A stretch of DNA of 64,000 bases. Source: Planctomycetota bacterium (GTDB taxonomy: Bacteria > Planctomycetota > PLA2). Position 1 is the stretch's first letter; every line of letters begins with the position of its first letter. The DNA is taken from contig JAJFFH010000061.1 in NCBI GenBank assembly GCA_021776735.1, positions 62,001 to 126,000 on the forward strand. The letters run 5' to 3'. The translations under genes were made by a program, and so were the position numbers. Below the pieces are notes generated by a model. That model saw only the letters and a program-made list of their open reading frames with translations. It did no database searches and had not been told where the DNA came from. Of the stretch, positions 30,611 through 64,000 are shown piece after piece.

Positions 30611-30808
30611 GTGGCGTCCACGAACGGCAACCAGGAACTGCGCAACGCAATCGAGCACTGCGTGCGCGCGATCCTCGAATCGGGGTTCGGCCGCTTTCAG
30701 GTTCGAGCCGAACGCACGCGCCCCGACCGCATCCGCGTCCATGTGGACGGCGGCATCTACTCGCAGGTAATCTATGTTCGCGTCAATAGGGAGGATCAGG
30801 AACCATGA
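30611..30808 (+). CDS. Small protein encoded ahead of the RtcR-like regulator
   Basis: 65 residues if started at GTG 30611, which is +3 of the predicted sigma-54 transcript; the in-frame ATG at 30572 lies upstream of that promoter's start point. Sequence: an N-terminal helix (ELRNAIEHCVRAILESGFGR) followed by a beta hairpin (RIRVHVDGGIYSQVIYVRVN). No family is recognised. The stop overlaps the regulator ATG as ATGA, so the two are coupled. It could be a partner or inhibitor of the regulator. Confidence 0.6.
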   Translation: MASTNGNQELRNAIEHCVRAILESGFGRFQVRAERTRPDRIRVHVDGGIYSQVIYVRVNREDQEP

Positions 30809-32271
30809 GCAAACATCTCTTCACCTGGATGGGAACGGCGGACCTGAACGGGATCCACCAGCCACTACGCGCCGGGCCCGTTGCTGCGGCGCTGAAGGAC
30901 AAGTACTACGACGAGGTCCATCTCCTCCGAAGCCCGCGCGACCAGTTGCCGGAAAAGTTCCACGAAAAGTGGGACATCTGGTGCGAGTGGGTTCAGGAGT
31001 ACGCCACCAAGAGATTCACGAGCATCGCCAATCCCGCGCTGCGCACCGCCATGGACTGGGAAGGGATCATGGACGCGGCGCGCTCGGCGATCAAGACCGT
31101 GATCAAGAAGGACCCGAAAGGCGAGCTGACGTTTTTCTTGAGCCCCGGCACGTCCGCCATGTCCGCGGTCTGGATCATCCTTTCCAAGACCGATTTTCAG
31201 GCTCGCTTGGTCGAGTCTTCGAACTGGGAAACCAAGCGCGACGACTCGCTCCAACTCACCGAAGTTCCGTTCGCCCTTGCACTTCGCCGAGGCGCCGGAG
31301 CGGGCGGGCTCATGACGTTTGAGGACATTCCCGATCGGCACGAGCCGATGAAGGACGTTCTCGATGTCGCCCGGCGCGCGGCCCAGACCGACGCGGCGAT
31401 CCTGCTTCACGCCGAAACCGGCTCCGGAAAGGAGGTCTTCGCGCAGGCGATTCATCGCGAGAGTCCCCGCGCAGGCGGCAGGCTCGTCCCCTGCAACTGC
31501 GCCGCGTTCTCGCCCGCGCTTGTCGAGAGCGAGCTGTTTGGCCACCGGAAGGGCGCGTTCACGGATGCCAAGGAAGACCGTGCCGGGCTGTTCGAGGCCG
31601 CGAATGGCGGCACGGTCTTTCTCGACGAGGTCGGCGAACTGTCGCTCGAGACCCAGGCGAAGCTGCTGCGCGTGCTGGATCAAGGGCGCGTGCGCCGGCT
31701 CGGCGAGACCGACGAGAGGCCGATCGACGTGCGCATCGTCGCGGCGACGAACCGTGACCTCAAGAAGATGTGTCGCGATCGCACGTTTCGCGAAGACCTG
31801 TACTACCGACTCGCCCCGATCACCATCGGTATCCCCCCGCTACGGCGTCGCCACCCGGACGATCGACGCGCCCATCTGACACGGGAATTCGACGCCATCA
31901 ACGGGCAGTTCGGTCGCCGGATGGAGCTGTCCGACGACGCCTGGTCCAAGCTCGACGAGTTCGCGTGGCCGGGCAACATCCGAGAGGTCAAGAACGTGAT
32001 GCAGTACTGCATGGCCACCGTTCCGGCGGACGGCGTCATCCGGGCCAAGCACCTGGCCGTCCGGCTCGATGATCCGATCACGAGCGGGCACCCGATCCTG
32101 GATCGACCCCTGGCAGAGTGCGACACGGCAGAGAAACTGCTGCGCTACGAGTACGTCAAGCGCGCGATCCAGAAGGCGGGGACGCAGGTAGCGGCGGCTG
32201 AGCTGCTGCCGTTCCAACACGGGGCCGTCAAGGAGTCCGTGAAGTGGGCCCGCGACCACGCGGTCGAGTAA
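30805..32271 (+). CDS. RtcR-like sigma-54 activator with CARF-like sensor domain
   Basis: 488 residues. Residues 1-160 resemble the CARF-type domain of Rtc[20 protein letters not shown] (113-131) corresponds to the nucleotide-binding loop region, followed by ARLVESS. Residues ~170-400 are a sigma-54 AAA+ domain: Walker A ETGSGKE (204-210), the sigma-54-contact loop GAFTDA (250-255, usually GAFTGA), Walker B VFLDEVGE, and [13 protein letters not shown]. The C-terminus ([18 protein letters not shown]) should hold the DNA-binding helix-turn-helix, but it is atypical. In RtcR the CARF domain senses RNA-end or cyclic nucleotide ligands. Here no rtcA or rtcB is nearby. It probably activates the promoters at 30582, 35518, 36415 and 36534. 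Confidence 0.88.
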
Positions 32272-32292: not shown

Positions 32293-32736
32293 TCAGCCGT
32301 CTCGCAGGACTCGGCTTCGGGCTTGGCGCAAAAGATCTTCGCGGTCGTCGGATCGGACTCTGCTCTTCGGGGCGGTTGCGCGCACGCGGCGTTCGAGTTC
32401 CGCGACGGTTGCGCGGCGTTGCTTGAGCCCGCGCCGACGCCGTTCCGCCGCGCGTTTTCGCTCTCGCAGTTGTTCCAGAGCGGACTCTTCCGTGCCGCGA
32501 CTGCGTAGCATCGACAGTGCCAGGTCTGCCTCGCGAGCGCGCGCGCTCTCTTCGCGAATGCGTCGATCGAGGTCGCGGGCGTAGCCCGACAAGCGGGCGG
32601 CCAGGGCGAACGGATCCTCGGGCGACCCCGGCGCGGTCACCGCGCGATCCTCGGCCGGGCACGCGTATGGCCACGAAGAGCGACCCGCGGCAAAGCCGGC
32701 GGCCAACAGGGCGAAGGCGAAAGACATCTTCTTCAT
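32293..32736 (-). CDS. Exported coiled-coil protein, last gene of the ABC operon
   Basis: 147 residues. A signal peptide (MKKMSFAFALLAAGFAAG) is followed by a strongly charged helical region with heptad character (YARDLDRRIREESARAREAD and ALEQLRERKRAAERRRRGLK). It begins 18 bp after the permease stop, preceded by GGAAAT. A periplasmic helical partner of the ABC complex, as in MacA-like adaptors, is possible but unproven. Confidence 0.6.
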   Translation of the reverse strand: MKKMSFAFALLAAGFAAGRSSWPYACPAEDRAVTAPGSPEDPFALAARLSGYARDLDRRIREESARAREADLALSMLRSRGTEESALEQLRERKRAAERRRRGLKQRRATVAELERRVRATAPKSRVRSDDREDLLRQARSRVLRDG

Positions 32737-32754
32737 GGGATTTCCTCTCAGTGC

Positions 32755-34701
32755 CTAGCCTTGTGCGCGCAGCGACTCCACGGGGTGCCGGCGCGCGGCA
32801 CGCACGGCCGGAAACACCACACCGGCAAGCGAGAACAAGACGGACACGGCCAAGGCGACGGCGAACAGCCACCAAAGATCGAGCGCAAGCACGGACGAGG
32901 GAGCGCCGTCGCCGAAGACGCGTCTCAACAGGCCGGCCAAGGCGTTCTCCCCGAGCGCAAGTACGAACACGGCGGCGACGAACGCGACGCAGCCGATCAG
33001 CGCTGCCTGAATGGCGAACACCGAAACGATGGCGCCCGGCGCAACACCGTGCGCGCGCAGGATGCCGATCTCGCGCACGCGGCTTCTGATGTTGAGACTG
33101 GCCGTGACGCCGTTGCCGACCATCGCGTTCAACGCCGCGCCGAGTACAAACACCGCCACGAGCACGGCGAGGACATGGCCGAGTTTGCGCAGCGACCGCT
33201 GCTCGGCGAGCCGATCCTCGGTGCGGTAGCCGGCGTCCCGCAGTCGCTCGCCCACGGACTCGACATCGTCCGCGGACCGCGCAATCACGACCGCGCGCAA
33301 GGCCCCGCGCGCCCGCGCCACCTCGCGCGGCGATTCAAAGCGCGCCCGCGTTTCGTTGTACAACGCCGCACCCCGCTGCCAACGCCGCACGCCACGCAGG
33401 AACGCCCGCGGCGCAAAGGCGAAAGGCATCGCCGTCCGTCCCTGTATTCGGACGGGAACGGTCAAAACATCACCGGGGCCGCGCCCGGTGCCGCGCGTGA
33501 ACCGCAACTCGGACACGGGCTCGCGACCCGCCGGCCAGACCACCCCGGGCACGACGGCGTCTTCGCGCATCCAGCTCCCGGCGGTCAACGCGCCCCGCTC
33601 GAAGCGCCGCGGGTCATCCGCGCCGGTCCCGACCACGCGCAGCGCGCCGCCGGCGGACCGCGCCTCGACCGCAACCTCGGCGAACGCCGCCAGGCACACC
33701 GGCCGGCTCAGCCGCAAGGTCGTGACGAGCGACGGTTCGACGAGACCGCGCGGATGACGCGTATCGCGCACCAGGAACCGAATCCAGCGCACCGGAAACG
33801 CCGCCCACGCCGGGGTGGATGACCCGGACGGAAGCGAGCGGGCCTGCTCGCGCCGAAGCGCAGGGCGCGAAGGCGGAACGGCGATGTCCTTGATCGATCC
33901 CGCACCGTTGCGGTCAAACGAGATCGACAGCTCGCGCGCGAGACGCGGCAGTTCGGCCACGTGTTGCGCATCGACATACACGATCGCGCGAACGCGCGGC
34001 GCGCGCGCGGCCGCACCGTCGTCCGAGAGCGAGTCCACGCGACGCGTGCACCACAGGTCGAGTCGCTGCACGAGCGCGACCGGTGCCAGGATGCGATTGG
34101 TCGCGCTCGATCGTAGGGTTCCGGCGACGCGCACCGGAATGCGCAGTTGCCTGGTGCGCCCGCCGTCGGACCGTGCGACCTCGAGCACCATGCGCGTGTC
34201 CGCGTCCGCGCCGGTGCCCCCGCCCCCCTCCTTTTCCCTTTTCTCCTCGTTTCCATGCACGAAGAACCCACGCGGCACGAGAATCTCGTGCGCGCCCGGC
34301 GCGGACAGGCCGCGGCCCGCGGCGAGGCGGCGCGGCGCGGCGATCGGATCGTTTGAAACAATGCCTTGCGCAACGACATCGACGGCGCGACCGTTCGGAA
34401 GCACGAGGCGCACGCCGATTTCGACACACGGATACGCCTGCACGACGCGCGGCCACGCGGCAATCTCTTCGAGGCGCGCCGGCGTGAAGCGGGAGCCTTG
34501 CGCGATGTCGGGTGCGGTCGCGACGAGGCGCGTGAGCACGCCGGTGTCGATCGTCGCGCGCTGGCGCTGGTAGACGCGCACACCGAGGCCGCCGAGGACG
34601 AGCAGGTACAGGCACGCGACGGAGACGACGCCCGCATTGAGCAGGGCGAGGCCGCGCCGGTGCCGCAGGTCCGACAACGCGAAGCGCAACAGGTTGTTCA
34701 C
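32755..34701 (-). CDS. FtsX-like ABC permease with large periplasmic domain
   Basis: 648 residues. One N-terminal helix (LLNAGVVSVACLYLLVLGG), a ~430-residue extracytoplasmic domain, then three C-terminal helices with FtsX/MacB-type sequence (SRVREIGILRAHGVAPGAIV). MacB/LolC/FtsX permeases couple ATP hydrolysis to work on the periplasmic side rather than classical transport. GTG 34701 has AGGAGG upstream and overlaps the preceding stop (GTGA). The periplasmic domain contains IKDIAVPPSRPALRREQARS, encoded by a long-form repeat copy, plus GGGGTGADAD from the C-rich word and RTAMPF from a 13-mer. Three repeat insertions in one domain is unusual. Confidence 0.8.
   Translation of the reverse strand: MNNLLRFALSDLRHRRGLALLNAGVVSVACLYLLVLGGLGVRVYQRQRATIDTGVLTRLVATAPDIAQGSRFTPARLEEIAAWPRVVQAYPCVEIGVRLVLPNGRAVDVVAQGIVSNDPIAAPRRLAAGRGLSAPGAHEILVPRGFFVHGNEEKREKEGGGGTGADADTRMVLEVARSDGGRTRQLRIPVRVAGTLRSSATNRILAPVALVQRLDLWCTRRVDSLSDDGAAARAPRVRAIVYVDAQHVAELPRLARELSISFDRNGAGSIKDIAVPPSRPALRREQARSLPSGSSTPAWAAFPVRWIRFLVRDTRHPRGLVEPSLVTTLRLSRPVCLAAFAEVAVEARSAGGALRVVGTGADDPRRFERGALTAGSWMREDAVVPGVVWPAGREPVSELRFTRGTGRGPGDVLTVPVRIQGRTAMPFAFAPRAFLRGVRRWQRGAALYNETRARFESPREVARARGALRAVVIARSADDVESVGERLRDAGYRTEDRLAEQRSLRKLGHVLAVLVAVFVLGAALNAMVGNGVTASLNIRSRVREIGILRAHGVAPGAIVSVFAIQAALIGCVAFVAAVFVLALGENALAGLLRRVFGDGAPSSVLALDLWWLFAVALAVSVLFSLAGVVFPAVRAARRHPVESLRAQG
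33427..33439 (-). repeat. 13-mer word, exact copy
   Basis: Minus-strand ACGGACGGCGATG followed by CCTTTCG in the permease gene, in the less common frame Arg-Thr-Ala-Met-Pro. Confidence 0.85.
33850..33889 (+). repeat. Long-form dispersed repeat (40 bp)
   Basis: GCGCCGAAGCGCAGGGCGCG then AAGGCGGAACGGCGATGTCC, antisense to the permease gene. Near-identical to 25189-25227. Confidence 0.75.
34216..34228 (+). repeat. Polar C-rich word, exact
   Basis: GCCCCCGCCCCCC followed by TCCTTTTCCC. The permease gene runs on the other strand, so the word keeps its + orientation independently of gene direction. Confidence 0.65.
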
Positions 34702-35489
34702 GCGACCTCCTGACTGTCGGCAGCGGGGGCCGCGACGCGGTGATCGGACACGGCGAGGGTGACGAAGGACTCGGTCGGGACGGGCTGGCGGGCGGGCGGT
34801 CGGCGCGGCGGCGTGCCGAAGCCGTCGGGCAGGGCGACGCGGTCGCAGTAACGCCAGGCGCGGGCTTCGTCGCGGGTGAGCACGACCACCGGGACGCCGG
34901 TTTCGTCGGACAGCAGACGCAGGGTCTTGAACGCGGCATCGACGGACTCGACGGAGGCGCCGGCGGCGCACGGCTCATCGACGACGACGGCAGCGGGCCT
35001 TTGCGAGAACGCGCGGGCGACCGCGAGCGCGGCCTGCGACTTCGGGGAGAGCTGGTCGGCGGGCAGGGACGACTTCGACACGAGGCCGGTCAGGGCGAGC
35101 AGGCGCGCGGCGTCGTGGCGCAGGTGTTCGAGTACGGACAGACGCTCGTCGACGTCCCAGCCGGTCGCGCACAGGCACAGATCGCGGTCGTCGTTCAGGG
35201 CCGTCGCGGTCAGCGCCGCCGCCAGGGACCGGGCGGGCTCGCCGAGAGGGTTGATCAGGTGCCGCGACCACTCGGCGTCGCTACCACTCGGGCAAATCCA
35301 GCCGGCGGCCATGGGCTCGTCCTCGCAAAAGCGCAGGCCACGGAGCACGACGATGCGACGGGCAGACGAGAGGGTGGAGGGGGTCGCGGGGGAGGAGGAA
35401 GACGCTGCGGAGGGGGACGCGGGTGCGCGCAGCTTCAGGAGACGGCCGGCGAGGACAACGAGGACGGTGAGGCAGATGACGATCAACAT
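34698..35489 (-). CDS. Membrane-anchored degenerate ABC ATPase
   Basis: 263 residues. An N-terminal membrane helix (MLIVICLTVLVVLAGRLLKL) precedes an ABC nucleotide-binding domain that has lost key residues. The P-loop is unrecognisable (WICPSGSDAEWSRH replaces GxxGxGKS/T), the signature reads LSPKSQ rather than LSGGQ, Walker B is AAVVVDEP with the catalytic Glu kept, and the switch His is replaced (LTRDEA). It is probably a non-hydrolysing partner of the active ATPase encoded just upstream. ATG 35489 has AGGAG upstream and also lies at +3 of a sigma-54-like promoter. Confidence 0.75.
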   Translation of the reverse strand: MLIVICLTVLVVLAGRLLKLRAPASPSAASSSSPATPSTLSSARRIVVLRGLRFCEDEPMAAGWICPSGSDAEWSRHLINPLGEPARSLAAALTATALNDDRDLCLCATGWDVDERLSVLEHLRHDAARLLALTGLVSKSSLPADQLSPKSQAALAVARAFSQRPAAVVVDEPCAAGASVESVDAAFKTLRLLSDETGVPVVVLTRDEARAWRYCDRVALPDGFGTPPRRPPARQPVPTESFVTLAVSDHRVAAPAADSQEVA

Positions 35490-35498
35490 GGCAGTCTC

Positions 35499-36386
35499 CT
35501 AAACACGGGGCGTACCAATGCGAAGCGAAAGGGATTTGGCCTGCGGCGCGGTCGGCTCATCGGCCGGGTGGTCGGAATCCCGACCAAACTCGAAGGGGTT
35601 TCGGCCGAACGCAACGAGCCGGTCGCAATAGCGGCGCGCCAAGGCCACGTCGTGCGTGACCATGACCACGGTGCGTCCGGTGCCCGCGACCAGTTCGCGA
35701 AAACGCGACAATACGTTTCGGGCCAAGGCGGGGTCGAGGCTGCCGGTCGGCTCGTCGGCCAGGATCACGTCGGCGTTCGACAACAGCGCACGCGCGATGG
35801 CGACTCGTTGCTGCTGGCCGCGCGACAGTTCCGCGGGCAGCCGATCGGCGCCGGACAGGCCCATGCGCGCCAGCACGGGCTGCGCGCGCGCGATCGCTTC
35901 GTCCCACGGCACCCTGGTACACAAGAGCGGCAGGGCCGCGTTTTCTGCCGCGCGCAGATGCGCGACCAGATTCAAGGACTGAAAAACAAATGCGACGTGG
36001 CGCGCGCGGTACCGGGCCAGCAGCGCGGGCCGGGAAAACGGCACGGGCTCGCCGCGAAACAGGAGCGCGCCCGCATCGGGCGCATCGAGGCCGCCGAGCA
36101 GATTGAGCAACGTACTCTTGCCGCGACCGCTCGCGCCGAGAACGGCCACGAACTCGCCTTCCGCAAACGAGCCGCACAGGTTGGTGAACACCGGCACGAC
36201 GGCTCCGGATCGATCGCGATACGCCTTGGCGACGTCGCGCAGCTCAAGTAGCGGCGGTCGCACGGCGGGCACGAGCCGCACGCGAGGCGCGGATACCGGT
36301 CCGAGATTCGGCGTGCGGCGCAGGGCGCGACCGAGCCAGTAGGAACCGAGACCGACGAGCGCGAAAAAACAAAGCGGCGCGAGCAT
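35499..36386 (-). CDS. Membrane-anchored ABC ATPase, MacB/LolD type
   Basis: 295 residues. An N-terminal helix ([20 protein letters not shown]) anchors an intact ABC domain: Walker [16 protein letters not shown]-loop FVFQSLN, signature [11 protein letters not shown], Walker [14 protein letters not shown], and switch VTHD. The 'DEPTGSLD' form groups it with LolD/MacB/FtsE ATPases. A membrane anchor on a separate ATPase subunit is unusual. The C-terminal tail (after [12 protein letters not shown]) is encoded over the second pair of operator palindromes. It is the first gene of a four-gene minus-strand operon and starts at +3 of its predicted sigma-54 promoter. Confidence 0.85.
35502..35518 (-). 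promoter_or_regulatory. Weak sigma-54-like promoter inside the ABC operon
   Basis: Minus-strand TTGGTACGCCCCGTGTT: the -24 GG is present, but the -12 GC is GT. It is included because its operators lie exactly 31 bp upstream, as at 30582, and the ATG at 35489 falls at +3. Confidence 0.45.
35550..35585 (-). promoter_or_regulatory. Tandem palindromes inside the ABC ATPase gene
   Basis: GGTCGG-CTCA-TCGGCC (35550-35565) and GGTCGG-AATC-CCGACC (35570-35585), 20 bp apart. The proximal site is 31 bp from the -24 element at 35518. Confidence 0.65.
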
Positions 36387-36398
36387 GCCACCGCCTAG

Positions 36399-36415
36399 CG
36401 CAACTCACGGGCCAT
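36399..36415 (-). promoter_or_regulatory. Sigma-54 promoter of the ABC operon
   Basis: Minus-strand ATGGCCCGTGAGTTGCG: TGGC-N7-TTGC, with GG and GC at the required spacing. The predicted +1 is 36388, two bases before ATG 36386. It is 41 bp from the operators at 36457-36492. Confidence 0.65.
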
Positions 36416-36456: not shown

Positions 36457-36492
36457 GGTCGCTTCTTCGGCCGCGTGGTCGGAAACCCGACC
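36457..36492. promoter_or_regulatory. Tandem palindromes between divergent sigma-54 promoters
   Basis: GGTCGC-TTCT-TCGGCC (36457-36472) and the perfect GGTCGG-AAAC-CCGACC (36477-36492), 20 bp apart. They lie exactly 41 bp from the -24 element on each side, so one site pair can serve both operons. Confidence 0.7.
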
Positions 36493-36533
36493 GCGCCCGA
36501 ACGAAGAATCGCTTGAAACACGCAGCCGCCGCT

Positions 36534-36550
36534 TTGGCACGGCCTCTGCG
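36534..36550 (+). promoter_or_regulatory. Sigma-54 promoter of the coiled-coil/vWA operon
   Basis: TTGGCACGGCCTCTGCG: the full TTGGCACG -24 element, and CTGC at -12 (consensus TTGC). Predicted +1 is about 36561, giving a 45-nt leader before ATG 36606. Confidence 0.75.
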
Positions 36551-36605: not shown

Positions 36606-37409
36606 ATGCTGAAAAAAATCATTGTCCTCTCGCTCGTCTCTGCCGCGCTCGGCGCCGCCGTCCTCGGTCCCTCGAACGTGTTCACTTCCCTCCGTGCCAG
36701 CGCCAACCTCTTCCAGGAGGAACTCGAGCGCGCCAAGCCCGACCTCCAGCAGCTCGCCGAAATCCGCGTCCACCTGCACGACCTCGACGGCCGCATCCAC
36801 GACTACGCCGACCGCCTCGCCGAACTCCAGGGCCGCGTCGATGCGGCCCACCGAAAGTCCGCCGAGTTCAAATCCGCCGCCGGACGCGAGCGTCGCTACC
36901 TCGAACGCGCGCAAGAACACCTCGCACGGCCCGACGAGACCTTCACCGTCGCCGGACGCACCTACACCCGCGCTACGCTCAACGCCGACGCGCTGACCCG
37001 CGTAAACCGCTGCCGCGAGCTCGAACGCCAGGCAGGTTTCTTCAAGGATCTCGCCCAGAAACTGACCCACAGCGCCACCCAGGGCAAAACAATCCTCGCC
37101 CGCGCCAAGACCACCCGCCAACAAAACACGATCAAGCTCCGGGCGCTGGAAGCGCGCCTGGCCAACGCCAAGCTCCTGCAGGAGGTCGTCGCCCTGACCG
37201 ACGGCGTCCGCACCGACCCGCTCGGTCCCCGCACCGAACTCGAGCGCAAGTTCGAACGGCTCAGCCGCAAGGCCGCCTCCCTCGAACGACGCGCCGGCAA
37301 CCTCCATTCCGACGACGCGGCCCTGGTCGACTGGGACGGCCGGGAAACCGACCAGCCCGACGCCCGCGACGTCCTCCACTCCTTTCTCTCAAACAAGCCC
37401 AACCGCTAA
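36606..37409 (+). CDS. Exported coiled-coil protein, first gene of a sigma-54 operon
   Basis: 267 residues. A signal or anchor (MLKKIIVLSLVSAALGAAVL) precedes a long coiled coil (ELERAKPDLQQLAEIRVHLH, then RDLDGRIHDYADRLAELQGR-like heptads). A central FTVAGRTYTRATLNADALTR motif recalls a planctomycete family of membrane-tethered, PspA-like helical proteins; this comparison is from memory and unverified. ATG 36606 has GAGGAG upstream. A strong hairpin follows the gene, so it may be made in excess over the downstream vWA gene. Confidence 0.7.
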   Translation: MLKKIIVLSLVSAALGAAVLGPSNVFTSLRASANLFQEELERAKPDLQQLAEIRVHLHDLDGRIHDYADRLAELQGRVDAAHRKSAEFKSAAGRERRYLERAQEHLARPDETFTVAGRTYTRATLNADALTRVNRCRELERQAGFFKDLAQKLTHSATQGKTILARAKTTRQQNTIKLRALEARLANAKLLQEVVALTDGVRTDPLGPRTELERKFERLSRKAASLERRAGNLHSDDAALVDWDGRETDQPDARDVLHSFLSNKPNR

Positions 37410-37500: not shown

Positions 37501-39495
37501 ATGAAGATTCTGATCCGTGCCTCGCTGTTCTTCCTCGTGTCCGCCGTCGCGGTGTTCGCGTTCAGCCCCGTGCTGCGCGCCCGCGTGTGGGCCTCGGTCC
37601 GCCCGCTGCTCGCCGACCAAGAGCGCCCCGCCGCCGAGCGCCCGAAGCTGAAGCTCATCGCGGACAACACGTACACGGTCCCCGGCATGGACTGTCTCGT
37701 CAACCGCCATGGCATCCGCGTCAAGGTCGTGCCGACCACACGCGGCGTGCGCTGCCGCGCCGAGCCCGGCAACGGCGACATCTCGGGCGCGCCGCTGCGC
37801 TACTTCCGCCCGTACTTCGTCTTCGACGTCTTCCCCCACGAGGGCAAGCCGCAGCACTGCCTGGTCGGCGAAACCCCGCGGCGCTCCGGCGCGATCGGCT
37901 GGGCCCCGGCGTCAGGACTCGCGCGCTGGCCGACCCGCGTCGGGGCACGCTACAAGCGCGCGCCCGGCGGACGCACGCCGCCGCTGCTCGTGTTCCGCAC
38001 GAAAGACGACGCCGCCCGCTTCCTCCGCGAGGGCCTCACGAACGTCGAGCCGATCGCGCGCACGACCCACGACGCCCCGCGCGCCCGCATGCCGTGGCCG
38101 GTCACCGACGTCGCGCAGGTCGAGGCCAAGGGACGGGTTCACGAGGTGATCAAGCTGCAGTTTTTGGGAACGGACGGCGATGCTTTTTCGGCGCAACCGA
38201 CCGCTCCGGCCCGCGGGCGCGACGCGCAAGAAAACGTTGAAAGCGTGCGCCGCAGCCTCGGCACCGTCGATCTCGTGTTTGTCGCGGACAACACGCGCAG
38301 CACGCAGCCGTTTCTCGCCGCGATCAAGATCGCGGTCAACCAGATCGCCAAAAGCATCGCCGTCCGTCCCTCCCTTGACGTTCGTTTCGGCCTCGTCCTG
38401 TTTCGCGACCATGTTCCCGAGATCCTGTTTCCCGGCCGCGCCGCGGTGAAACACTTCGCGCTGACCGGCGACATCGACGAGTTTCTCCGTCGCGTCGCGG
38501 CACTGCACGAAGCGAAGGTGGGTAGCATCGACTGGCCCGAAGCGGGGTATGACGGCCTCCACAGTGCGCTGAGTGCGACGAAGTGGCGCGGCGACCGGTT
38601 GTCGAGCCGCGTGATCTGCCTGATCGGCGACAACTCGTTTCACGAGCCCGGGCACGTCCGCAACCCCCACGGCTATCGCGCACAGGATCTTGTCGCCGAC
38701 GCGCGACGACGTGACGTCCGCATCGTCGGGCTTTGCATTCGCGGTGGCGGCGAGGGGGACGAGCAGCAGCGCCACGCGCGCCAGTTCAACGCTCTCGCGG
38801 CTGGAACCGGCGGAAGAATCTACTCGATCTCGGACGCCGGCAAGGCTGCGGCGCACGTACTCTCCACGCTCGACGCGACCACGCGTACCGCGTCGGAACG
38901 CGCCGTCGTGTACACCGATCTCGCCGCGGGCAAGCCGAAGGAGACGATCGCGCGCGACCGGCGCCTCGACATCGAGCGCGTGACCGAGGTCATGCGCTTT
39001 CTGAACGCGCGTGGCGTGCGCGTCGGGCCGCGCCAGGCCGACGGGACACGCTTCGCCGAGGGTTGGGCGGTCACCGATGTCGAGGGCGTCGCCATCCTCG
39101 AACGCGAGGTCTTTCTCGCGCGCTCCGAGCTCGACCTGCTCGTCAGCTCGCTGAGCTACGTCTGCTCCCGCCTCTCGCCCGATGCTGCGCAAGGACTCTT
39201 CGAGAGTGCCGCCGGCAGCCGCATCAACCCCGCCGCGAGTTTCTTTCGCGACGACCTGCCCGAGCCGCTCGACGTGTTCCTGATGGCCAAGGGTGTCCCC
39301 GTCGGACGCGCGAGCATCCTGCGCCTGACCGCCGCCGATGTCCGCCACATGCCGGAAGAAGAGCGCGCGAAGATGCGCACGCGAATCGCTGGCGTGCTCA
39401 TCCCGGGCCTGGTCGTCGCGCGCAACGACAGCTCGCTGTGGGTCTACCGCGACGGCCTGGAGTTCGGCTGGATTCCGGAGCATCTGCTGCCGTGA
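37501..39495 (+). CDS. Exported von Willebrand factor A-type protein
   Basis: 664 residues. A signal or anchor (ASLFFLVSAVAVFAFSP) leads to an SH3-like segment, then a vWA domain from about residue 255: VDLVFVADNTRSTQPFLAAI carries a variant metal site (D-x-T-x-S in place of D-x-S-x-S), followed by VRFGLVLFRDH and VICLIGDNSFHEPGH. The C-terminal ~200 residues are unassigned and end in SLWVYRDGLEFGWIPEHLLP. AAAGGAGA precedes the ATG. Two 13-mers in inverted orientation (38170, 38355) bracket the first vWA strand and metal-site helix. In the sigma-54 regulon this is a candidate scaffold or sensor outside the membrane. Confidence 0.75.
   Translation: MKILIRASLFFLVSAVAVFAFSPVLRARVWASVRPLLADQERPAAERPKLKLIADNTYTVPGMDCLVNRHGIRVKVVPTTRGVRCRAEPGNGDISGAPLRYFRPYFVFDVFPHEGKPQHCLVGETPRRSGAIGWAPASGLARWPTRVGARYKRAPGGRTPPLLVFRTKDDAARFLREGLTNVEPIARTTHDAPRARMPWPVTDVAQVEAKGRVHEVIKLQFLGTDGDAFSAQPTAPARGRDAQENVESVRRSLGTVDLVFVADNTRSTQPFLAAIKIAVNQIAKSIAVRPSLDVRFGLVLFRDHVPEILFPGRAAVKHFALTGDIDEFLRRVAALHEAKVGSIDWPEAGYDGLHSALSATKWRGDRLSSRVICLIGDNSFHEPGHVRNPHGYRAQDLVADARRRDVRIVGLCIRGGGEGDEQQRHARQFNALAAGTGGRIYSISDAGKAAAHVLSTLDATTRTASERAVVYTDLAAGKPKETIARDRRLDIERVTEVMRFLNARGVRVGPRQADGTRFAEGWAVTDVEGVAILEREVFLARSELDLLVSSLSYVCSRLSPDAAQGLFESAAGSRINPAASFFRDDLPEPLDVFLMAKGVPVGRASILRLTAADVRHMPEEERAKMRTRIAGVLIPGLVVARNDSSLWVYRDGLEFGWIPEHLLP
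38170..38182 (+). repeat. 13-mer word, exact copy
   Basis: ACGGACGGCGATGCTTTT in the vWA gene, read GTDGDAF. It forms an 18-bp perfect inverted repeat with 38350-38367. Confidence 0.85.
38355..38367 (-). repeat. 13-mer word, exact copy (inverted partner)
   Basis: Plus strand AAAAGCATCGCCGTCCGT, read Ser-Ile-Ala-Val-Arg-Pro; 198 bp separate the outer ends of the pair. Confidence 0.85.
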
Positions 39496-45311: not shown

Positions 45312-45548
45312 ATGAAGGAAATCCTCATCTTCCTCGCCATCGGAGCGGTCGCCGGCTGGCTGGCGTCGCTGGCGATGAAAAAAGACAGCGGCAGCCTGCT
45401 CAAGAACATCATCGTCGGCATCGTCGGCGGCCTGATCGGCGGCTGGCTGTTCCCGATGATCGGGATCCAGTTCGCGGGCCTGATCGGCACCATCATCATG
45501 GCGGCAGGCGGCGCGGTCCTCCTGCTGTTCGTGCTGTCGAAGTTCTAG
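45312..45548 (+). CDS. GlsB/YeaQ/YmgE-family small membrane protein
   Basis: 78 residues with three glycine-rich membrane helices (LIFLAIGAVAGWLASLAMKK, then NIIVGIVGGLIGGWLF, then GTIIMAAGGAVLLLFVLSKF). This is the transglycosylase-associated/GlsB family, usually stress-linked in the envelope. The whole protein matches the family length. Confidence 0.88.
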   Translation: MKEILIFLAIGAVAGWLASLAMKKDSGSLLKNIIVGIVGGLIGGWLFPMIGIQFAGLIGTIIMAAGGAVLLLFVLSKF

Positions 45549-55284: not shown

Positions 55285-55953
55285 ATGGCGGTTCTTGAGA
55301 TTGATCGGCTTGTCAAACGGTATGCCTCGCCCGACGGGGAGGTGGAAACCGTGATTGACATCGAGCGGCTTGAGCTTGGGGACGGGGCCCAGGTTGCGTT
55401 GCGGGGGACCAGCGGGTCCGGGAAGACGACGCTGCTGAATCTCATTGCAGGGGTCTTGCGGGCCGACGAGGGGCGCATCGTTTTGGCGGGACACGACATC
55501 ACCGCGATGTCGGAGTCCGAGCGCGACCACGTTCGGGCGCGGCACCTGGGCTATGTCTTTCAGACGTTTAACCTGCTCCAAGGCTACAGCGCAGTCGAAA
55601 ACGTCGTGCTGGGCATGGTGTTCGGCGGCCGGGCCGATCGCGGCCGGGCCGAGGGACTACTCGAGGCGGTCGGGCTCAAGGACCGGATGAACTACCGGCC
55701 GCGCCAGCTCTCGGTCGGACAGCAACAACGCGTCGCCGTGGCGCGCGCTCTCGCGAACGACCCCGATCTCGTGCTCGCCGACGAACCGACCGGCAGCCTC
55801 GATCCGCGCCACGCGCAGGAAGCGCTCGACCTGGTCCGGAAGCTCTGCGAGGAAAACGACGCGGCGATGCTGCTCGTCAGCCACGACGATGGCATCCTGG
55901 AACGGTTCGACGACATCCGCGATCTGAGTGAACTCAACCGCGCGCGCGCATGA
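55285..55953 (+). CDS. ABC transporter ATPase, LolD/MacB type
   Basis: 222 residues with an intact ABC domain: Walker [16 protein letters not shown]-loop FQTFNLL, signature [10 protein letters not shown], Walker [14 protein letters not shown], switch VSHDDG. It pairs with the FtsX-like permease that overlaps it (ATGA). No membrane anchor is present, unlike the ATPases at 34.7-36.4 kb. Confidence 0.92.
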
Positions 55954-57197
55954 ACGAGTTCTGGGCGATTCCCCTGATGGTGCGCCGCAGCCTGCGGCAG
56001 CATCTCCTGTCAACCCTGGTGACGGCGATTGCCTTGGGGCTCGCAAGCGGGCTCGTCATGTCCATTTTCGCGATCAACAACCAGGCGGACAAGGCGTTCC
56101 GCGGCGGCGAAAAAACGTTCCACGCGGTGCTTGGCGCGCGCGGGAGCCCACTGCAACTGGTGCTGAACAGCATCTACCACCTCGAAACGTCGCCGGGCAA
56201 CATCCCGTGGAAGCTCTACAAGACAATCAAGAACGACCCGCGCGTCGAGATCGCCGTGCCGTACGCGGTCGGTGACAACTACGAGGGCTTTCGCATCGTT
56301 GGCACGACCGAGGAGCTGTTTGCCGCCAAGAAACTCCAGGTGGACGGCTTCGTCTTCAACTCGCAGCGTCGCCAGGCCGTGATCGGCAGCTTTGTCGCCG
56401 CGCAAACCAGCCTCAAGCCCGGCGCGCACTTCTTCCCGGTTCACGGGGTGCAGCCCGATCCGAACGCCGCCGTACACACGGAGGATCAGTACGTGGTTGT
56501 CGGCGTGCTCAAGCCGACCAACTCCCCTCTGGACCGCGTCATCTTCATTCCGATCGAGGGCATCTATCGCATGGGTGGCCATCCGCTCGCGGACGGCACC
56601 GTCGCCAAGGACGGCGAGGAGATCCCGGACGAGTTCAAGGAGGTCAGCGCGGTCCTGATCAGGCTGAAGTCGCCTGCGTTCGGCATGCAACTGGCCGACA
56701 CCATCAACAACCGCAACAAGGAAGCGACGTTCGCCTGGCCCATCTCCACCGTGATCGGACGCTTTCTGAACAAGTTCGCGTGGATTCTCCGCGTCTTGGA
56801 AATGATCGCGTATCTGGTCGTCGCGGTTGCCGCCGGCTCCATCCTCGCGAGTCTCTACAACACGATGAACGAACGGCGCCGCGAGTTCGCGATCCTGCGC
56901 GCGCTGGGCGCGAGACGTAGCACCGTGTTTACAGCCATCGTCATGGAGTCGGCGGCGATCGCCACCATCGGCGCGTTGATTGGCTTCCTGGTCTACGGAG
57001 CCATCCTCTTCTCCGCCGCCATCGCCATCCGGCAGCACACCGGCGTGGTGCTCGACACGGCGATAGACTTCAGGCGCCAGCCGGAGCTGTGGAAGACCCC
57101 GCTCGCCATGATCGCACTCGGCGCAGTCGCCGGCATCCTGCCCGCGTGGAAGGCCTATGCCACCGACGTGGCCGAAAACCTCGCCCCTCAATCGTAA
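55950..57197 (+). CDS. FtsX-like ABC permease
   Basis: 415 residues with one N-terminal and three C-terminal membrane helices around a ~220-residue extracytoplasmic domain. [20 protein letters not shown] is the FtsX/MacB signature. With the upstream ATPase it forms a MacB/LolCDE-like mechanotransmission complex rather than a solute importer. The following gene overlaps as TAATG. Confidence 0.88.
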
Positions 57198-61743: not shown

Positions 61744-64000
61744 ATGGGCATGCGCCGCACCCTCGTGCTCCCGCTCCTGTTTGCCATCCTGCTGCCCCAC
61801 GTGCTTTGGGCCCAGGACGGTCCGCCGGAGAAACCCGCGAAGCCGGAACCCAAGAAGAAGGCCGATCCGCAGCCGGAGCTGCACAAGATCTACGTTCCGT
61901 ACAAGAAGCTCGATGAGCTCCTCGGCACCGACAAGGAACGCGTCATGGTGCCGTACAAGGAGTTCCTCGAACTCTGGAACCTCAAGTACGGACCCAAGGC
62001 GTCCGCGGCGGAGCCGCCCGTGCCGTTCGCCGTCGAGTCCGCGCGCTACGACGGGCGCGTACAAAACGGACTCGTCGTGTTTCAGGCGGTCCTTCAGATC
62101 GAGGTCTTTGCGGAAGGCTGGCAGCGCATCCCGCTCGGCTTTTCGCGGATCGCGTTCGAAGACATCGCCGTCGATGGCAAGCCGGGCGTATTGACGCCGA
62201 CCCGGGGCGGCTACGAACTCCTGCTGCAGGGCAAGGGCCGCCACAAGGTCGAAGCGCGCCTCGTGGCCGGCATCGCCCGCGGCAAGGAGGTCGCGACGTG
62301 CGAGTTCGGGCTCCCGCCCGTGCCGCTGCACCGGCTGACGTTCCGCGTCCCCGGCAAGGGCACGGAAGTCGGTCTCGAGCCCGCGCGCGCGAGTTCGACG
62401 AAAAACGACGGCGACGAAACGGTGCTGCTCGCGTTCTTGGGCCCGCAGCGCAAGGTCAAGCTCAAGTGGCGGTACAAGCCCGAGGAGACCGAACGCGAGC
62501 CGTCGCTCGTGTTCTCGACCGACATCGTGGATCTCAGGGTCGAGGAGCGTTCGCTGCGCGGACTGACCCGCTTCGAGCTGAAGGTCCTGCGCACGCCCAC
62601 GGAAAAGTTCGTCGTCGAGATTCCCGAGGGCGTCCAGGTACTCGAGGTCTCCGGCGCACGCCTGCGCACCTGGAACTTCACGGACGAGGCCCGGCGGCGT
62701 CTCGAAGTGCGCCTGCACAAGCCCGCCATCGGGTCGTACACGTTCGAGGTCCGCTTCGAGCGCACCGTTTCCATTCAAGTGCCGGGCATCGTCGCGGTGC
62801 CTGCGCTGCGCCTCGTCGACGCGTCGCGCGAGCGCGGTTTCGTTCGCGTCACGGGCGCCGAAGGCGTCGCCGTCCGTCCCGGAGCGCTTGAAAACGCGTT
62901 TCAGTCGGACCTGAACTCCCTGCCCAAGGCGATCCGCGGCGGCCGCGGCCTCGGCTTTCGCTTCGCAACCGTGCCGTATTCGATCGGCCTCGTCACCGAA
63001 CGCATCGAACCACTCGTCTCCCTCGTGCATCGCGCACGGCTCAACGTCGGACGGCGCCTCGTGTCGCTGCACCAGGAACTCCAGTTCGACGTCGAGCGCA
63101 CGGGACTGTTCTCGGTGCGCGTACACGTGCCGGACGGCATCACGCTCACCGACATCGGCACTCCGCAGCTCGTCGATACGTGGCGCGAGATCAAGGAAGA
63201 CGGCAAGCGCATCCTGGTCATCGAACTGCGCGGCCGGCGGATGGGCAAGTTCACGCTGCCGTTCAAGGGCGAGATGGAACTCGATCTCGGCAGGGATCCC
63301 AAGGAGGATCTCAAGAACGTCCGGCTCCAGGTGCCGCTGCTTTCGATGACGGGCGCGGACCGCGAAGAGGGCACGCTCGGCGTCTTCATGGACGCGGGCT
63401 TGAAGGCCTCGGCGAAGACAAAAAGCGTCGTGCCGCTCGAGCCGAAGGAATTCGTCCAAAAAGACCGCTACCGCTCGCCCGCCGGACTCCCGCTCGCCTT
63501 CGCGTGGCGCTGGCGCGGCGAGGGCCCGGAGGTCGCGTTCACGATCGAAAAACGCAAGCCCAAGGTCACCTGCGACGTGCACTACCGCCTCGAAGCCGGC
63601 GAATCGCGCGTGCAGGTCCGCGCGGAGCTCCACTACAACGTGCAGTACAGCGGCGTGGAGACGTTCTCGTTTCGCGTGCCCAAGTCGATCCGCAAGAACC
63701 TCAAGGTCGATGTCGCCGGGTTTCGTGAGAAGGAACCCAAGGACGACACAGTCAAAGACGGCGATGTTCCCACCACGACGTGGACCGTCACGATGCAGCG
63801 GCCCGTGCTCGGCAAACTGGTGATCGTCGCCGAGTACGACGAGACTTTCCCGCAGCCGCTTCAGACGGGCCAAAGCCGTCCGGTCGCGATTCCCGCGATC
63901 GTGCCGCTCAACCTCGATCGCACGAACGCGTTCGTTGCCATCCGCAAGGCACCCACGATCAAGGTCGATCCCGCCGGAACGGACTACGAGCAGATCGATC
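61744..64000 (+). CDS. Large exported protein of unknown function (3' end outside window)
   Basis: At least 752 residues, open to the window end. A signal peptide cleaves after LPHVLWA, followed by a charged Lys/Pro linker and then a long beta-rich chain (VPFAVESARYDGRVQNGLVV, then VVEIPEGVQVLEVSGARLRT, then LNVGRRLVSLHQELQFDVER). No catalytic motif is recognised. ATG 61750, two codons on, is an equally good start. VKDGDVP near the end is a decayed 13-mer (63754). An unusually long open frame on the opposite strand (61477-63873) is a shadow of the strong GC skew. Confidence 0.6.
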   Translation, partial: MGMRRTLVLPLLFAILLPHVLWAQDGPPEKPAKPEPKKKADPQPELHKIYVPYKKLDELLGTDKERVMVPYKEFLELWNLKYGPKASAAEPPVPFAVESARYDGRVQNGLVVFQAVLQIEVFAEGWQRIPLGFSRIAFEDIAVDGKPGVLTPTRGGYELLLQGKGRHKVEARLVAGIARGKEVATCEFGLPPVPLHRLTFRVPGKGTEVGLEPARASSTKNDGDETVLLAFLGPQRKVKLKWRYKPEETEREPSLVFSTDIVDLRVEERSLRGLTRFELKVLRTPTEKFVVEIPEGVQVLEVSGARLRTWNFTDEARRRLEVRLHKPAIGSYTFEVRFERTVSIQVPGIVAVPALRLVDASRERGFVRVTGAEGVAVRPGALENAFQSDLNSLPKAIRGGRGLGFRFATVPYSIGLVTERIEPLVSLVHRARLNVGRRLVSLHQELQFDVERTGLFSVRVHVPDGITLTDIGTPQLVDTWREIKEDGKRILVIELRGRRMGKFTLPFKGEMELDLGRDPKEDLKNVRLQVPLLSMTGADREEGTLGVFMDAGLKASAKTKSVVPLEPKEFVQKDRYRSPAGLPLAFAWRWRGEGPEVAFTIEKRKPKVTCDVHYRLEAGESRVQVRAELHYNVQYSGVETFSFRVPKSIRKNLKVDVAGFREKEPKDDTVKDGDVPTTTWTVTMQRPVLGKLVIVAEYDETFPQPLQTGQSRPVAIPAIVPLNLDRTNAFVAIRKAPTIKVDPAGTDYEQID
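62865..62877 (-). repeat. 13-mer word, variant copy
   Basis: Plus strand CGTCGCCGTCCGT, one mismatch, in the exported protein gene, read Val-Ala-Val-Arg-Pro. Confidence 0.5.

Follow-up and report, generated by a model that had tools for sequence, protein, structure and literature searches.

Can an ATP-binding cassette (ABC) machine make use of a second, membrane-anchored ATPase subunit that appears to have lost the means to bind ATP? The question is raised by a locus of a Planctomycetota bacterium (NCBI GenBank assembly GCA_021776735.1, contig JAJFFH010000061.1), contained in a stretch of 64,000 nucleotides (positions 62,001 to 126,000 of the forward strand) which is called the window here and to which all coordinates refer. 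An operon on its minus strand (36386-32293) consists of four tightly packed, coupled genes encoding an intact ABC ATPase (ATPase1), a degenerate one (ATPase2), a permease and a coiled-coil protein (Table 1); an initial annotation, made from the sequence alone, had the four genes, their coordinates and their strand right. The ATG of ATPase2 lies nine bases past the stop codon of ATPase1, behind a strong Shine-Dalgarno sequence (AGGAG), and the GTG of the permease, preceded by AGGAGG, overlaps the stop codon of ATPase2 (GTGA, a gene overlap of 4 nt). The answer we favour, while holding it with slightly less than even confidence, is that a homodimer of ATPase1 is the motor and ATPase2 a pseudo-ATPase accessory of a type VII (MacB-superfamily) machine, serving a probable sigma54-dependent envelope response.

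An alignment of 32 ABC ATPases supports the view that ATPase2 is catalytically dead, that is, able neither to bind nor to hydrolyse ATP. Walker A, the signature and the switch histidine are lost and Walker B is kept, just as the initial annotation had it; beyond these losses, the glutamine of the Q-loop is replaced by threonine (T109), the LD of the D-loop is gone, and about 24 residues are deleted between Q-loop and signature. What the protein retains is the Asp-Glu of Walker B, the serine of the signature, and the helix that follows the signature (AALAVARAF). Significant ABC homology is confined to the C-terminal half; NCBIfam ABC models match residues 124-218 with E values down to 4e-9, and PDB sequences are matched with an E value of 2e-5. 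The AlphaFold model of ATPase2, with a mean predicted local distance difference test (pLDDT) score of 69 and values above 90 across most of residues 120-170, retrieves many ABC nucleotide-binding domains in Foldseek (E = 1e-9, probability 1.0, at a template-modelling score of only about 0.5); as ABC ATPases made up the alignment from which the model was computed, its support for the fold is not independent of that alignment. Homology and modelled fold nevertheless speak against a protein devoid of the ATPase fold. A sequencing error or frameshift, for instance at Walker A of an otherwise intact ATPase, was rejected: there is one open reading frame with a strong Shine-Dalgarno sequence, the GC content at third codon positions (GC3) is 0.79-0.92 throughout, and neither Walker A nor any other lost motif is hidden in the other two frames. 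ATPase2 is therefore regarded as a real gene rather than a misreading, and the earlier reading stands on both counts.

ATPase1 does carry all ABC motifs, as had been claimed: in the same alignment Walker A is intact, the Q-loop glutamine (Q136), Walker B (ILADEP), the D-loop (SLDP) and the switch histidine are present, and the signature (LSRGQ) departs from LSGGQ by a single change. The protein matches Pfam ABC_tran with an E value of 1e-28; its best matches in the PDB are MacB and LolD (E = 4e-42), MacB being the closest by sequence, and the NCBIfam models of MacB, LolD and FtsE rank at the top. ATPase1 is thus of the LolD/MacB/FtsE class that characterizes type VII systems, albeit under the NCBIfam cut-offs for LolD (159.1 versus 307.75 bits) and FtsE (152.5 versus 264.85 bits).

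Each ATP site of an ABC dimer is shared: one subunit contributes Walker A and Walker B together with the Q-loop and the switch histidine, its partner the signature (PMC12038006). With Walker A and the signature both gone from ATPase2, a 1:1 pair of ATPase1 and ATPase2 would have two broken sites, and not one composite site would be intact. A pair of ATPase1 subunits has two good sites, and the helical subdomain of ATPase2 is shortened, which together favour the ATPase1 homodimer as the motor. An obligate asymmetric 1:1 heterodimer under a permease dimer, in which ATPase2 would be static and the machine would be driven by one slow ATP event at the Walker A/B site of ATPase1, is the alternative that survives best, although we consider it doubtful. 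It is in keeping with the adjacency and translational coupling of the two genes, their matching anchors, the signature serine and Walker B Asp-Glu retained by ATPase2, and the fact that asymmetric ABC heterodimers are common. However, ATPase2 lacks the signature GGQ needed for the ATPase1 site and Walker A, Q-loop and histidine for the other; the residues missing between Q-loop and signature belong to the subdomain that as a rule contacts the coupling helix; and a separately encoded permease could equally homodimerize with two ATPase1 subunits. In ABCG5/G8 the signature is damaged in one protein and Walker A in the other, which leaves one dead and one live site (PMC7756502); for the present pair, a heterodimer with one live site is disfavoured because ATPase2 alone has lost Walker A, the signature and part of the permease-contacting helical subdomain. 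The initial annotation had proposed an asymmetric ATPase pair in one complex; of this, two ATPases with predicted anchors, one of them dead, hold up, while their pairing within one complex is retained as a possible reading, though not the best supported one.

The permease is of the FtsX/MacB class. It matches Pfam FtsX above the gathering cut-off (E = 4e-10) and has the type VII layout of one transmembrane helix, a large periplasmic part and three further transmembrane helices (at about 16-62, 497-539, 555-599 and 609-636 in the model); the periplasmic part, put at about 430 residues before, comprises about 450, so that the large insert itself is confirmed. The modelled transmembrane core matches LolE best in the PDB, followed by MacB, YtrF, LolC and FtsX, while the NCBIfam cut-offs for LolC/E are far from reached. 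Within the periplasmic part, modelled with pLDDT values below 50 over residues 50-468, visual inspection picks out segments that resemble a Porter subdomain at either end of the insert, and MacB_PCD gave no match; no relative of this part was found in the 17 genomes of the class that were searched and in 392 of the phylum (a sample of it). The 147-residue coiled-coil protein has a signal-like N-terminus, so that its description as exported is sustained as a prediction, and no EnvC or hydrolase domain was recognized in it. Elsewhere in the window (55285-57194, plus strand), an ordinary LolD-class ATPase and an FtsX/MacB_PCD permease are encoded, a canonical counterpart of the unusual operon.

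MacB-type machines relay a conformational change to the periplasm, the substrate not being carried through the membrane (PMC5985334). In the machine proposed here, two copies of the permease and the ATPase1 homodimer would form a type VII ABC system in which the cytoplasmic binding and hydrolysis of ATP move the large periplasmic domain (mechanotransmission), and the exported coiled coil may be the periplasmic partner that acts on the envelope, broadly as FtsEX acts through EnvC. ATPase2, as a probable tandem duplicate of ATPase1 that retains the anchor and the core of signature helix and Walker B, would be tethered to the membrane and have a role in regulation or assembly.

The initial annotation took MacB/LolD-type ATPases to be normally soluble homodimers; of these, only LolD- and FtsE-type ATPases are separate soluble subunits, for MacB carries its ATPase domain and permease in one fused protein. 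An N-terminal membrane helix on both ATPases, claimed at the same time, is borne out as a prediction. The best 17-residue Kyte-Doolittle mean is 1.74 in ATPase1 and 2.78 in ATPase2, the model of ATPase2 has a helix at residues 2-19, and in both proteins the hydrophobic stretch is followed by residues rich in Arg/Lys, so that by the positive-inside rule the ATPase domains are predicted to be cytoplasmic. A comparable segment is present in none of about 50 ATPases of relatives; the two anchors can be aligned with each other (10 of 2000 shuffles reach the score), as would be expected if the duplication followed the gain of the anchor. Both the start codon and the anchor that depends on it are less secure for ATPase1 than for ATPase2, because a sigma54-like site (Table 1) would place the transcript start at about 36388, some two bases before the ATG, and leave the transcript almost without a leader. 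ATPase1 might instead start downstream, at a GTG at codon 36, 39 or 42, and be an ordinary soluble LolD-type ATPase, with ATPase2 alone anchored. This we regard as unlikely, as those GTGs lack a Shine-Dalgarno sequence and the ATG is preceded by a partial one (AGGCGG), codons 1-45 appear to be coding (GC 0.78/0.60/0.76), the segment conforms to the classic N-out/C-in anchor, has RALRR behind it and aligns with the anchor of ATPase2, and the sigma54-like promoter may be due to chance.

The ATPase pair probably arose by a tandem duplication of about 0.9 kb that comprised the upstream region and the ATPase gene. The region's best repeat, a direct one of 45 nt and 80% identity, has a local alignment score of 47, compared with at most 30 in 500 shuffles; the argument is that its spacing of 907 nearly equals the distance of 897 between the two ATG codons, that the stretches from repeat to ATG can be aligned (3 of 1000 shuffles are as good), as can the anchors, and that among the paralogues of ATPase2 in the genome ATPase1 is the best. 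Inside the repeat lies the palindrome GGTCGGGNTTCCGACC, of which the 5.97-Mb genome contains exactly two exact copies, both at this locus; because it stayed intact while the identity of the proteins fell to about 24%, it suggests a putative binding site under selection. Another palindrome, GGTCGGTTCTCAGACC, occurs in identical form at four places of the genome (C1:58201, C29:37600, C31:19 and C46:282), two of them at contig ends, and is probably a repeated element.

Divergently oriented to the ABC operon is a gene for an anchored or exported, distantly PspA-like coiled coil. Two candidate sigma54 sites face outwards from the 219-bp intergenic region shared by both, and rpoN is present in the genome; sigma54 control of the ABC operon is plausible, and operon and PspA-like gene would probably be switched on together in a sigma54-dependent envelope response. 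Relatives of the PspA-like gene in the phylum adjoin genes for FHA-sigma54 activators and Ser/Thr kinases as well as for short coiled coils that are exported, a setting suggestive of a signalling module related to the envelope; these short coiled coils resemble the 147-residue protein in size and layout only, without a match in sequence. The PspA-like protein stays below the Pfam cut-off that would place it in a classical PSP system (PspA): it scores 19.6 bits against PspA/IM30, the cut-off being 33.9. It also has an N-terminal membrane segment.

Several results weigh against the proposed machine and its control. The sigma54-like pattern was set only after the sites had been seen, it is not enriched genome-wide (29 matches versus 83 in the reversed control), and in its strict form it was not found upstream of the PspA-like relatives; nor does the ABC operon adjoin the PspA-like gene in any of the relatives' loci. 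In a tree of the ATPases ATPase2 is too divergent to be placed (branch length 8.9), for which reason the protein tree is no test of the duplication. An orthologue of ATPase2 was found neither in the family (5 genomes) nor in the order and class (17) nor in the phylum sample (392), where searches gave only generic ABC matches of about 27-39 bits over residues ~120-235; the family genomes also lack an orthologue of the periplasmic domain, and GTDB contig scans with ATPase2 and with the permease, which reach close relatives only, gave none for either. Beside the 20 nearest permeases there are no tandem ATPases, but one recognizable MacB-class ATPase each, or none in the stretch examined. The arrangement is therefore known at present from one genome only, and in the absence of an orthologue conservation lends no support to a function of ATPase2.

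A functionless duplicate in decay, caught before its frame broke, would account for the occurrence in a single genome and for the very long branch. It is nonetheless improbable, since the frame is intact with a GC3 of 0.84-0.92 over almost the whole length, higher than in ATPase1, the gene has its strong Shine-Dalgarno sequence and is coupled to the start of the permease, and core residues (A-ARA, DEP) as well as the membrane helix were retained despite the loss of most sequence identity. Equally improbable, in our estimate, is that ATPase2 acts as a tethered competitive switch, which would dock on ATPase1 or on the permease, keep the machine auto-inhibited with no intact ATP site, and give way to a second ATPase1 when the envelope is stressed; if so, an ABC machine would be regulated through the swapping of a pseudo-ATPase subunit.

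Compared with known systems, the locus is a variant of the type VII ABC systems, a known class, distinguished by a doubly broken second ATPase with a predicted anchor. Like LolCDE it combines a separate LolD-class ATPase with an FtsX/MacB-type permease whose transmembrane core is best matched by LolE; unlike LolCDE it has two ATPases that differ from each other, of which one is dead and both have a predicted anchor, and a single permease gene, and it stays below the LolD and LolC/E cut-offs. With MacB of MacAB-TolC, the nearest protein to ATPase1 in sequence, it shares four transmembrane helices with a big periplasmic domain between the first and the second, but ATPase and permease are encoded separately rather than fused, a dead ATPase is added, and no gene for MacA or TolC was seen adjoining the operon. 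The likeness to FtsEX-EnvC, in which a separate type VII ATPase and a permease are encoded alongside an exported coiled-coil partner, is one of analogy and not of membership, as the FtsE/FtsX cut-offs of NCBIfam are not reached, the periplasmic domain is far larger here, and the coiled coil is without an EnvC or hydrolase domain. YtrBCDEF of Bacillus subtilis is likewise an operon that encodes two ATPases together with a permease of MacB type, YtrF, which the permease model matches; there, however, YtrB and YtrE are both described as nucleotide-binding, two further membrane proteins are present, and an anchored dead ATPase is not described. ABCG5/G8, TM287/288, BmrCD and Rv1273c/72c are ABC pairs with one degenerate ATPase as well, but in these one composite site is defective and the other intact, while here Walker A and signature are lost in the same subunit. 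A usual hallmark of asymmetric heterodimers is loss of the Walker B glutamate (PMC7544095), which ATPase2 retains. Where the known degenerate pairs keep one working ATP site, the structural role of the second ATPase domain would here be separated from ATP chemistry. Should ATPase2 prove to be expressed and required, a mechanotransmission-type ABC machine would be under the control of a naturally occurring pseudo-ATPase, and its ATPases would bear anchors unusual for their kind; this significance is limited by the single genome on which it rests.

Table 1. Features of the ABC operon and its upstream region (positions in the window; aa, amino acids)
Feature	Position	Strand	Description
ATPase1	36386-35499	-	295 aa; intact MacB/LolD-class ABC ATPase; predicted N-terminal membrane helix aa 3-19
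ATPase2	35489-34698	-	263 aa; degenerate ABC ATPase (pseudo-ATPase); predicted N-terminal membrane helix aa 2-19
ATPase2, degenerate Walker A	35268-35294	-	CPSGSDAEW, aa 66-74, versus GxSGSGKST; K to A
ATPase2, degenerate signature	35037-35051	-	LSPKS, aa 147-151, versus LSGGQ
ATPase2, retained Walker B	34974-34991	-	AVVVDE, aa 167-172 (VVVDEP)
ATPase2, switch His replaced	34872-34874	-	Arg206, from the alignment
Permease	34701-32755	-	648 aa; FtsX/MacB-type; GTG start
Coiled-coil protein	32736-32293	-	147 aa; short; predicted exported or anchored; signal-like N-terminus
45-nt repeat, copy 1	36457-36501	-	71-115 nt upstream of ATPase1 ATG; holds palindrome GGTCGGGTTTCCGACC
45-nt repeat, copy 2	35550-35594	-	61-105 nt upstream of ATPase2 ATG, inside the 3' end of ATPase1; holds palindrome GGTCGGGATTCCGACC
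Candidate sigma54 -24/-12 site	36399-36414	-	TGGCCCGTGAGTTGCG; before ATPase1
Candidate sigma54 -24/-12 site	36535-36550	+	TGGCACGGCCTCTGCG; before PspA-like gene
PspA-like gene	36606-37409	+	267 aa; divergent; membrane-anchored or exported coiled coil, distantly PspA-like

Anchored PspA-like proteins form a coiled-coil family; in several lineages of the phylum the adjoining genes encode an FHA-sigma54 activator and a Ser/Thr kinase as well as a B-box zinc-finger protein and a short coiled coil that is exported. This neighbourhood may possibly be an envelope-stress module outside the curated families. Directly downstream of the PspA-like gene of the window an exported VWA-domain protein is encoded (37501-39495, plus strand). 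Converging on the ABC operon is the gene of a sigma54 activator (30805-32271, plus strand), of which NCBIfam RtcR matches the AAA+ part only, below the cut-off, and whose N-terminal 170 or so residues resemble by eye the CARF-type domain of RtcR. Farther away (45312-45545, plus strand), a small membrane protein of 78 residues, beginning with MKEILIFLAIGAVAGWLASLAMKK, looks by eye like a member of the transglycosylase-associated/GlsB family.

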